The notes below the pieces were generated by a model that was not told where the DNA came from, did not search any database, and saw only the letters and a program-made list of their open reading frames with translations. 64,000 nucleotides of DNA from positions 113,376 to 177,375 of IMG/VR virus record IMGVR_UViG_3300033145_000192, one strand, 5' to 3'. The DNA comes from a virus. Below are positions 31,340-34,457 of the stretch, one piece after another; position 1 is the first letter of the stretch, and each line of letters starts with the position of its first letter. A program made the translations under genes and the position numbers.

Positions 31340-33340
31340 CTACTTAATTGGGCAGCTTCCTCTTGAGCACTTTTGCTCAGGGTCGATAACCAACTTCTTA
31401 CCATCGTAAGCTTCATATGACTCGCGAGTTATTTCTGTATAGGGAGGCTGTGGTCTGCCCCCGGCTCCCACCAACACGGTGGTCCCCTTGAGCTTTGGAA
31501 GGAACTTAATTACCGTGTGGTAAAGCTCCTTCTCAGTTGTAGCAGGAGTTAGGTTGACTGTCAAGGAAATTGAATTGTCAGCCCACTCACGCTGCAACAT
31601 AGCCTGAATCGCGAGGGTGTCATGCATCGAAATGTCGTGCTGTCCCTCAACGATGTCTTCTGCATCGTAACCTAATTCAGAAACTTCGTCAACAAGCGGG
31701 TGCTTACAAACATGCTTGGCAATGATTGTGTTTATACCCTCTTCCTTGTTAATACACTCTTCGAACTCTATCCCGTCACTCATAAGTTTTGGAATGTTAG
31801 GGTCGTCCTTTTGATAACGCACGCGTTGCTCATAGTATGGGAACAGTAGAGCCTGGCCACCCTCGGTTGCTCCAGCCAATTTTGCAATTGTGCCAGTTGG
31901 AGCTAGGGTGGTGTTCTTGATTGGAGCAGGAATTCTAAGCTCATGGGCATATTCCATGCCGGTCTTTTTCACTACTCGGTAGAACTGACGCAGCGTGCTA
32001 TGCACCTCTGGGTCATTGTGGCAATCGCTATACTTCTTGCCTTGCTTGCACAGCCAACCCTGGAAGCCAAAGAACCCGACACCAATGCGCCTGTTGCGAT
32101 TAACTACGGCACGCTGCCATGGCGAATAGATATCGCCAAAGGTAGCACGAATAAGGAAGCGAGTCATCATCATAAATGCTCGCTTTGCTCCTTCGACATT
32201 GTCGTGGAATTCTGATAGGTTGATATGTCCTAGGTTGCAATTGCCAAATGGGAGAGCGAAAATCTCACCACATGGATTTGAACTTACGACCTCTTCGGTC
32301 TCACCGTGTTGCGCCAAAGACATATTGCAGAAGCCTGGCTCGCCACTGACATACATCGACTCGATGCATTTCTTATAAACCAGCCTGGCGTGCTTGTCGC
32401 CCTTCTTGAATAGTCTGAAGAAGGAATTGTCAACACCTACCGAGATGTTTGTTGTCCAATGAGAGACCCTGGCATTGTCGCCCTTACAGTGAATGAACTC
32501 AAAGATGTCCGGGTCCTTCCAATGCTTAATTGACATACGGGCACTACGACGGACATTGCCAGCAACTACGCACACTGCAATACGGTGGTCAATCTCCATG
32601 TGGTCGAGAGATGTGAGCCTCTGGCCCACTTTGCTACTCAACAATTCAGCAACGCCCTGAAGCATTCGGATAAGAGCCTCTGGCCCCGAAGCGGTGCCGC
32701 CAAATGACCTAATAGGGGAACCATAGGGTCTTACGCGGCTCATATCAAATACAAGCGGCTGTGGGTTCTTGGCAAATGCCTGCTCCAAAACCAAAATAAG
32801 AGCCTCTACCCAGCCCTCACGACTATCCTCGACAGGAATACATCCATCCCAAGTATGGTGATAATCAGTAGATAGAGTATCCCCAATGCGCTCGTGGTCA
32901 GCATGCTTAGAGTCGCATACGATGTGAACATCGAGCTTGTTCTTAATAGGAGGATATTTCTTGATGAACCTGTCGGAGTAGTTAGCACCGACGCCACCAC
33001 CCTTCATAAGCTCATCGAACATGAAGGAATAGTGGTCGGCCATATTATCACGCCAACCAGAGACGTGACAATTAAACAAGAACTGACGACCTTTGACGCC
33101 ACTAACCCACAGGTGACGGCCTGCGGGTAGTGCCTTAAAATCCATGAATAGGTCAACCAAATCTTGGCGTTCGTTCCTGCGCCAGAATTTTTTGTCTACT
33201 AGAGCAAGATTACCGTCTACGACACGTTCAACTGTCTCTGGCCATGTCTCGTTTGAGCCGTCTGGTTTCCTCCTACTATACGTTCTTTCATAAACTTGCT
33301 TCCCTATCGGACCCCACTTAATCTGCTGCATAGTAGGCAT
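31340..33340 (-). CDS. nrdJ: Class II (adenosylcobalamin) ribonucleotide reductase
   Basis: A 666-residue single-chain reductase, starting MPTMQQIKWGP behind AGGAG. Key features are NPCGEIFALPFGNCNLG with the active-site Cys, GTIAKLAGATEGG in the barrel, and a C-terminal redox Cys pair in CSRGSCPIK. The layout and length fit the monomeric B12-dependent (RTPR-like) type, which reduces ribonucleoside triphosphates without oxygen or a small subunit. It supplies deoxynucleotides for phage DNA synthesis. Confidence 0.9.
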   Translation of the reverse strand: MPTMQQIKWGPIGKQVYERTYSRRKPDGSNETWPETVERVVDGNLALVDKKFWRRNERQDLVDLFMDFKALPAGRHLWVSGVKGRQFLFNCHVSGWRDNMADHYSFMFDELMKGGGVGANYSDRFIKKYPPIKNKLDVHIVCDSKHADHERIGDTLSTDYHHTWDGCIPVEDSREGWVEALILVLEQAFAKNPQPLVFDMSRVRPYGSPIRSFGGTASGPEALIRMLQGVAELLSSKVGQRLTSLDHMEIDHRIAVCVVAGNVRRSARMSIKHWKDPDIFEFIHCKGDNARVSHWTTNISVGVDNSFFRLFKKGDKHARLVYKKCIESMYVSGEPGFCNMSLAQHGETEEVVSSNPCGEIFALPFGNCNLGHINLSEFHDNVEGAKRAFMMMTRFLIRATFGDIYSPWQRAVVNRNRRIGVGFFGFQGWLCKQGKKYSDCHNDPEVHSTLRQFYRVVKKTGMEYAHELRIPAPIKNTTLAPTGTIAKLAGATEGGQALLFPYYEQRVRYQKDDPNIPKLMSDGIEFEECINKEEGINTIIAKHVCKHPLVDEVSELGYDAEDIVEGQHDISMHDTLAIQAMLQREWADNSISLTVNLTPATTEKELYHTVIKFLPKLKGTTVLVGAGGRPQPPYTEITRESYEAYDGKKLVIDPEQKCSRGSCPIK

Positions 33341-33347
33341 ACATCTC

Positions 33348-34026
33348 CTAACGTAAGTCTTTGATATCACCTCTTAGAAACTTCTTGAGAGATGACTTCT
33401 TATTTGTTCTATGGTCTACAACCAGGTCTTTGCGCTCGCAATAGGTTCTAACTTTGTCCCCTCTTGCCCCTCTACCGACCTGGCTTTTCCTCTTGGCGTT
33501 CTTTTTATCTTTGTTGCGTCCCCGTTGGGCACTAAATAACTTAGCCCGCATGGCGTTCAGGGCCAACGCCTTATTGCGTCCCTGCCTGCGGCCATACTGG
33601 GCTATAACTACCATTCCTGTTGGGATGTGGGTTAGTCGAACTGCACTGTCAGTTTTATTTTTATGCTGTCCACCAGGTCCGCTACCTCTAAAGAAAGTAA
33701 ATCTGAGGTCTTGTGGTCTAAGTGCCACTTCAGTCTTTTGCTGGTGTTGTAAGACAGCAACGGTAATAGTGCTTGTATGAACTCTTCCCCTGCGCTCTGT
33801 AGGCGGGACTCTTTGGTATCTGTGGACCCCTGCCTCGTGACTGAAAACTTCATTTGCTCTCCTTCCTCCTACTTCTAGGACGACATATGATGCGGCGCGG
33901 TCGAGCAATTCAATGCTAAAGATGCTCCTTAGCGGCGACCTTCCTGAATACGTTCTCGAACTTGACAACCAAGTCCTTGGCGTCTGCACCACCAGCGGCG
34001 GCGCGAATCTCAATCGTTACGTTCAT
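33348..34026 (-). CDS. RF1-type peptide chain release factor with +1 frameshift
   Basis: Translation starts at 34026 (GAGGAG site) and runs 36 codons (EIRAAAGGADAKDL) to an in-frame TAG at 33916-33918. A +1 shift gives 225 residues. The following frame holds VPPTE, the PxT stop-recognition motif of RF1, and GPGGQ, the catalytic motif. Sequence around the stop reads AAG GAG CAT CTT TAG C, matching the layout of the E. coli prfB shift site (internal Shine-Dalgarno, 3 nt, CTT, stop). Domain 1 of normal release factors is missing. It would terminate at UAG and UAA. Confidence 0.85.
33910..33930 (-). promoter_or_regulatory. Programmed +1 frameshift site (CUU-UAG)
   Basis: Minus-strand AAGGAG, CAT, then CTT TAG C. 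Internal Shine-Dalgarno, spacer and slippery codon have the same spacing as prfB, but the stop is UAG rather than UGA. Slipping CTT to TTT moves the ribosome to AGC, and the downstream frame encodes the rest of the release factor. Confidence 0.85.
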
Positions 34027-34034
34027 TATCTCCT

Positions 34035-34436
34035 CTATTCCTCACTCCAGAAACAATCGTCGTCAATCATCTCTTCGACTGTAGTGTCTCCTTGATTCAA
34101 ACTGTCTTCAATGCGGGCATCCCAGATGTCAAAGTCAACGAACTGGTTGCGCCTTAGATAAAACAAAAAGTTGCGCACGTTCTTCACCATTAGATAGTCA
34201 GCATCCATGCCGCCCCTATGCGCGTTCCAATAGTATTCGATGAAGTAGGCATACCTTGTGCATCTCAGTATACATACGTCGGGACCGTTAGACAACATGA
34301 AGAAAACCATGTCGCCAAATTCTTCGGCATTGTCGCGGACGGGACCAATTACAAGGCCCATCTTTTCCGCAGCGTTGCCAACTTTTGTTGCTCTTTTGAG
34401 TGTCTCAATTGAAAACTTCGGCTTGTCCACTTTCAT
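34035..34436 (-). CDS. Hypothetical protein, first gene of the leftward block
   Basis: 133 residues from the ATG at 34436 (AGGTGGGAGG site); an upstream in-frame ATG at 34457 overlaps the promoter-like element. Mixed, somewhat acidic, with an aromatic segment (FIEYYWNAHRGG). No family recognised. It directly precedes the release-factor gene, 8 bp apart. Confidence 0.55.
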   Translation of the reverse strand: MKVDKPKFSIETLKRATKVGNAAEKMGLVIGPVRDNAEEFGDMVFFMLSNGPDVCILRCTRYAYFIEYYWNAHRGGMDADYLMVKNVRNFLFYLRRNQFVDFDIWDARIEDSLNQGDTTVEEMIDDDCFWSEE

Positions 34437-34448
34437 TCCTCCCACCTT

Positions 34449-34457
34449 TCTATACAC
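34449..34457 (-). promoter_or_regulatory. Promoter-like element GTGTATAGA
   Basis: Lies 12 bp before the first leftward gene start. It shares the GTGTAT core of the leftward family. Confidence 0.45.

Follow-up and report, generated by a model that had tools for sequence, protein, structure and literature searches.

Bacterial RF1 releases the peptide at UAA and UAG but not at UGA, the partner gene of PrfH is RtcB-like, and eRF1-type factors are not homologous to the bacterial class I factors. Recoding control of bacterial release factors had been assigned to RF2 and UGA. A survey published in 2025 covered more than 12,000 genomes; the stop in its 8,164 prfB motifs was UGA in 98.6% and UAA in 1.4%, UAG did not occur, and no programmed shift was reported in prfA (PMC12421855). 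The RF1/UAG counterpart was called unknown in a 2016 recoding review, while UAG had served as the stop in a CUU-site substitution study (PMC5009743). Among viruses, the eRF1-type factor gene R726 of Mimivirus carries CUU UAG C, and its +1 shift was shown in E. coli (PMC3521657). PrfH (RFH) is a class I factor that lacks domain 1 and retains GGQ (PMC1586002), and RF1 genes are encoded by huge phages (PMC7162821) and code-4 phages (PMC10746230), without mention of a frameshift in the available portions of these two reports.

The gene analyzed here encodes a shortened RF1-type release factor in a phage and is split by UAG at a prfB-like site. Its layout resembles prfB in the SD-like element 3 nt upstream, the CUU, the stop, the following C, the short leader and the +1 body, and the E. 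coli prfB site (AGGGGG TAT CTT TGA C, read from L222) matches it. It differs from prfB in that the product, referred to as mini-RF, is RF1-type and without domain 1, in that the shift falls inside domain 2, and in that the stop in this family is UAG or UGA, never UAA. Mimivirus R726 and Megavirus mg280 are similar in being viral release-factor genes with CUU UAG C (UAA C in Megavirus), a +1 shift and proposed autoregulation (PMC3521657), whereas they encode an eRF1 of eukaryotic/archaeal type, reside in giant viruses of amoebae and have an additional UGA readthrough. By analogy, the Mimivirus CUU UAG C provides the best support that a UAG version can work. Mini-RF shares with PrfH the missing domain 1 and the retained GGQ (PMC1586002), and domain-1-less homologues are present in huge-phage records (L004, L005, L008-L010); in contrast to the code-4 phages, the phages of the shift family use the standard code as judged by ORF statistics.

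The initial annotation knew of no described RF1 counterpart in a phage. Searches of the open-access literature returned no report of the bacterial-type mini-RF shift family and, with the exception of Mimivirus, none of a programmed shift in a phage gene or in RF1; the gene is, however, neither unique nor confined to phages, and Mimivirus R726 is the closest precedent and a viral one for UAG (PMC3521657). An RF1/UAG counterpart is now seen in phages and on the chromosomes of myxobacteria that can be cultured, and looks like an unreported way of tying release-factor production to the termination performance of ribosomes. Because UAG and UGA both occur naturally at this site, what it senses is directly testable, and the split layout suggests that annotation often treats mini-RF genes as broken or truncated.

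Anatomy of the split gene and its product

The window, a stretch of 64,000 nt from IMG/VR record IMGVR_UViG_3300033145_000192 (177 kb in total), contains the following features around the gene:

34035..34457, minus strand: upstream ORF of 140 aa, ending 8 nt from the release-factor start (ORF list; no family match)
34030..34035, minus strand: release-factor ribosome-binding site GAGGAG, overlapping the stop of the upstream ORF (sequence)
33919..34026, minus strand: leader ORF of 36 codons with ATG at 34026, peptide MNVTIEIRAAAGGADAKDLVVKFENVFRKVAAKEHL (sequence, ORF list)
33925..33930, minus strand: SD-like AAGGAG, 3 nt (CAT spacer) upstream of the slippery codon (sequence)
33915..33921, minus strand: shift site CTT TAG C, with CTT at 33921-33919, TAG at 33918-33916 and C at 33915 (sequence)
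33348..33917, minus strand: +1-frame body of 189 codons plus TAG stop at 33350-33348, with VPPTE loop and GGQ (sequence, profiles, structure model)
31340..33340, minus strand: downstream ribonucleotide reductase, likely ATG at 33340; its TAGGAG shares bases with the stop of the release factor (sequence, Pfam)

The 3' end of the leader reads GCT AAG GAG CAT CTT TAG C. A slip of one base after CTT makes AGC (33917) the next codon and enters an open frame, SIELLDRA...VPPTE...GGQ, that extends to the TAG at 33348, so that leader and body together yield a fused product of 225 aa. All components of a prfB-type +1 signal are therefore present (SD-like element, 3-nt spacer, CUU, stop and +1 body), and AGGAGNNNCTTTAGC was found once in the 64 kb window, with 0.01 occurrences expected by chance. 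The initial annotation had described a leader frame ending at TAG after 36 codons, a +1 shift joining it to a class I release factor with VPPTE and GGQ, and the spacing AAGGAG, 3 nt, CTT TAG C with UAG as the stop, all of which can be read directly from the sequence (leader ORF 34026-33919, body open over 189 codons). The coordinates first assigned to the feature hold for the leader but not for the whole gene, which spans 33348-34026 on the minus strand. It lies just upstream of the ribonucleotide reductase gene, and the translation signals of the two overlap; the ORF list starts the reductase at GTG 33370, as opposed to the likely ATG at 33340.

Comparison of the fused product with release-factor profiles gave 221.8 and 207.5 bits for RF1 models, 159.1 for RF2, 92.9 for PrfH and 37.7 for ArfB; the alignment to both RF1 and RF2 that had been proposed as a check thus favors RF1. 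The RF-1 domain (PF00472) scored 102.6 bits against a gathering cutoff of 35 and contains the catalytic motif GPGGQ, as expected of a class I factor. The recognition loop HRYQRVPPTERRGRVHTS aligned with HRVQRVPATESQGRIHTS of E. coli RF1 and includes PxT with Q as well as HTS. The product did not qualify as a full-length prfA equivalog with domain 1 (221.8 bits, NCBIfam cutoff 400), its match to the RF1 profile begins at position 105, and in Pfam it matches PCRF from model position 101 in addition to the RF-1 domain. Domain 1 is absent from the phage factor. The original assignment as RF1-type is consequently supported by the HMM, PxT and GGQ but does not extend to a full RF1, and the product is predicted to be a domain-1-less RF1-type class I release factor, the mini-RF, which could serve a function other than stop-codon release.

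An AlphaFold2 model of the fused product, built with 30 alignment rows from DNA, reached a pLDDT of 93.7 and a pTM of 0.78, and its closest PDB matches were ribosome-bound RF1 (query TM 0.92) and mtRF1a (0.88). According to the secondary structure of the model, the leader supplies the first strand and the helix of RF domain 2, and the shift point lies inside that domain, between the helix at 14-33 and the strand at 37-44.

Other family identities were considered and rejected. RF2 (prfB) was ruled out by the PPT loop, the lack of SPF and an RF2 score below that for RF1, PrfH by its score relative to the TIGR03072 cutoff of 166.65 bits, and ArfB/YaeJ by falling short of 100 bits and by the presence of domain 2 with PxT. 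No RtcB partner gene was detected among the window proteins or the neighbors scanned, which is a further difference from PrfH.

Conservation of the shift site in relatives

A relative on a second phage contig (L001) encodes a fused protein 84% identical to that of the window. The 20-nt block CTAAGGAGCATCTTTAGCAT is unchanged in L001 even though the leaders differ at 18 of the 35 codons compared. To sample more widely, loci were gathered with patterns that describe the N-terminal motif GGxDAK and take no account of the site; among the 66 loci from this search with the body in another frame, CTT precedes the stop in 65. De-duplication and a scan of bacterial genomes led to 85 full-length members, comprising 58 phage contigs (window included) and 27 bacterial contigs. 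The latter belong mostly to Myxococcota, and complete genomes of Minicystis and Nannocystis are among them. Since CTT and a GG-to-site distance of 25, 30, 35 or 41 codons were selection criteria for this set, neither feature is independent evidence within it; the site lies exactly 25 codons after GG in 75 of the 85. In a quick maximum likelihood tree the members of the mini-RF family grouped together (support 95), next to bacterial RF1 and separate from RF2.

Counting fragments, 80 sites belong to the 25-codon class, and their consensus is CGG AGG GGT CTT TGA C. An SD core is present in 73 of them (6% expected), and the mean anti-SD energy is -7.68 kcal/mol at the site versus -1.70 across the rest of the genes. 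All elements of the signal are deeply conserved, and the CTT-stop split site looks widespread in phages and myxobacterial chromosomes. A second class of sites, located 41 codons after GG, was noted in L054, L061, L108, L120, L122 and L131; it always reads CTT TAG C and has no SD-like element.

Taken alone, a frame break seen once in a metagenomic contig could reflect an error of sequencing or assembly, or a pseudogene in decay. The break at 33,916 nevertheless recurs in L001, which keeps the site letter for letter and so argues against a sequencing error, and in dozens of independent assemblies that include complete isolate genomes. Over the 189 codons of the body, the window and L001 genes differ by 29 synonymous and 27 nonsynonymous changes while both motifs are preserved, which is contrary to decay. 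We regard error or decay as having practically no chance of accounting for the break, which the initial annotation had been right to take as genuine and had proposed to look for in relatives.

It is also very improbable that the two frames give separate products, with an internal start for the body, a leader that is just a short upstream ORF, and no frameshift. A +1-frame ORF can indeed be drawn from the TTG at 34013, but in 73 of 90 loci a stop within the leader closes the +1 frame. Moreover, the fold requires the conserved domain-2 sequence EIRAAxGGxDAK, which the leader encodes, and separate translation would leave the SD-CTT-TRA signal without a role; an internal SD at a fixed distance ahead of CTT-stop is a known stimulator of frameshifting.

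Stop identity and proposed control of the shift

Very probably, a programmed +1 frameshift is required for synthesis of the domain-1-less RF1-type factor of this phage, with its output tracking UAG termination capacity. The absence of UAA from all 85 sites, the SD energy and the closed +1 frame are counted in favor of a programmed shift. A ribosome at the UAG of codon 37 would either be terminated by a release factor, yielding a leader peptide of 36 aa, or would have time to shift when termination is slow: the tRNA-Leu on CUU would slip to UUU, aided by pairing of AAGGAG with 16S rRNA, and the full 225-aa factor would be made. The phage encodes a tRNA-Leu(GAG), the expected reader of CUU. Less UAG termination capacity would then mean more factor. 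Since the factor of the window keeps an RF1-type loop, it probably reads its own UAG, which would close a negative feedback loop; in the family as a whole, the site would sense the host factor that reads its stop, namely RF2 for UGA and RF1 for UAG. The occurrence of the shift in cells and its efficiency, the signal that it responds to, the activity of the factor and any feedback are all inferred from sequence.

The stop at the site is TGA in 62 and TAG in 23 of the 85 members. It changed at least 15 times on the tree, with four changes forced by well-supported branches. Coupling between the stop and the loop was examined over 852 residue/column pairs, and the sole significant hits after correction were at position 37, which we discounted because its codon overlaps the bases of the stop itself; no codon-recognition residue among these pairs was associated with the site stop. 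The RF1-type loop QRxPPTE is common to both stop classes and kept in most members with a UGA site. Judged at the sequence level, site stop and recognition loop vary independently in the family.

These patterns bear on the idea, contained in the initial annotation, that the RF1-like protein senses its own codon. This fits the phage of the window, where UAG and an RF1-type loop agree, but it is not a rule for the family because 62 of 85 members have UGA and most of these an RF1-type loop. The feedback step is weakened by the same 62 members, given that UGA should not be recognized by RF1-type factors. A termination-capacity sensor fits the family better than own-codon sensing. UAA is recognized by both host factors, so its absence from the site fits the need for a stop under the control of a single factor.

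Strict autoregulation in the manner of prfB, in which each factor reads its own site stop (UAG here, UGA in relatives) and mini-RFs have relaxed to all stops, is possible but rather doubtful. Besides the agreement of stop and loop in the window, it could draw on signs that specificity may be relaxed: the Thr of PxT is replaced by Asn, Gly or Ser in several members, the His of HTS is often Gln, and about four recognition-loop residues are deleted in L006 (LR745208.1) and L018 (RTSNGRIHSS and HAPTGKVHTS), both with UGA shift sites. The retention of QRxPPTE at most UGA sites and the lack of an associated recognition residue speak against it. A broader view, which we advance tentatively as a reasonable if somewhat less than even prospect, is that mini-RF represents a third, widespread class I factor of bacterial type in tRNA-rich phages and myxobacteria, triggered by failure of UAG or UGA termination whatever its own codon preference. 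Unlike RF2-style homeostasis, this would amount to a general response to termination stress, and it would include a sister version with in-frame UGA readthrough in place of the +1 shift.

Genomic setting and shiftless homologues

All three stops end long ORFs in the phage (TAA 59, TGA 48 and TAG 29 among ORFs of at least 150 aa), and among the tRNAs that ARAGORN detected in the phage pieces scanned, neither CUA nor UCA occurs as an anticodon. Stop-codon reassignment was therefore rejected as unsupported, and the phage of the window uses the standard code by ORF statistics. A tRNA-Ser labeled TGA carries these letters as its anticodon and is not a suppressor. Roughly 100 kb from the release factor, the phage has about 40 predicted tRNA genes, which serve most of the amino acids, and a tmRNA (Rfam RF00023, 108.4 bits) (L224:3699-18950 and L225:695-9252). 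Many related mini-RF loci likewise lie within dense tRNA arrays; the one at L128 has 16 tRNA genes, including one with a CUA anticodon (labeled tRNA-Pyl) that is a possible amber suppressor beside a UAG-type factor.

In the eight bacterial genomes searched, mini-RF is extra to two canonical-length release factors. Myxococcota chromosomes (among L139-L183, e.g. L146, L167 and L170) encode canonical RF1 and RF2 and, in addition, mini-RF with this +1 site, and the Pfam-matched neighbors at L157, L150 and L167 are ordinary chromosomal genes.

Homologues without the shift but with one or two in-frame TGA codons were present at L005, L008-L010, L021, L044, L053, L094, L169, L171, L172, L175, L177 and others. 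These TGAs all fall between gene codons 31 and 51 and none elsewhere. Some of the genes come from Thalassospira, Variovorax, Rhodovibrio and Jiella, bacteria expected to use the standard code. The pattern suggests UGA readthrough as a second control of the same factor, while the viral homologues may belong to code-4 phages. Patescibacteria (L184-L214 and L216-L218) encode RF2-type factors of about 230 aa with an SPF/SPY loop, which are without domain 1 and have no shift.
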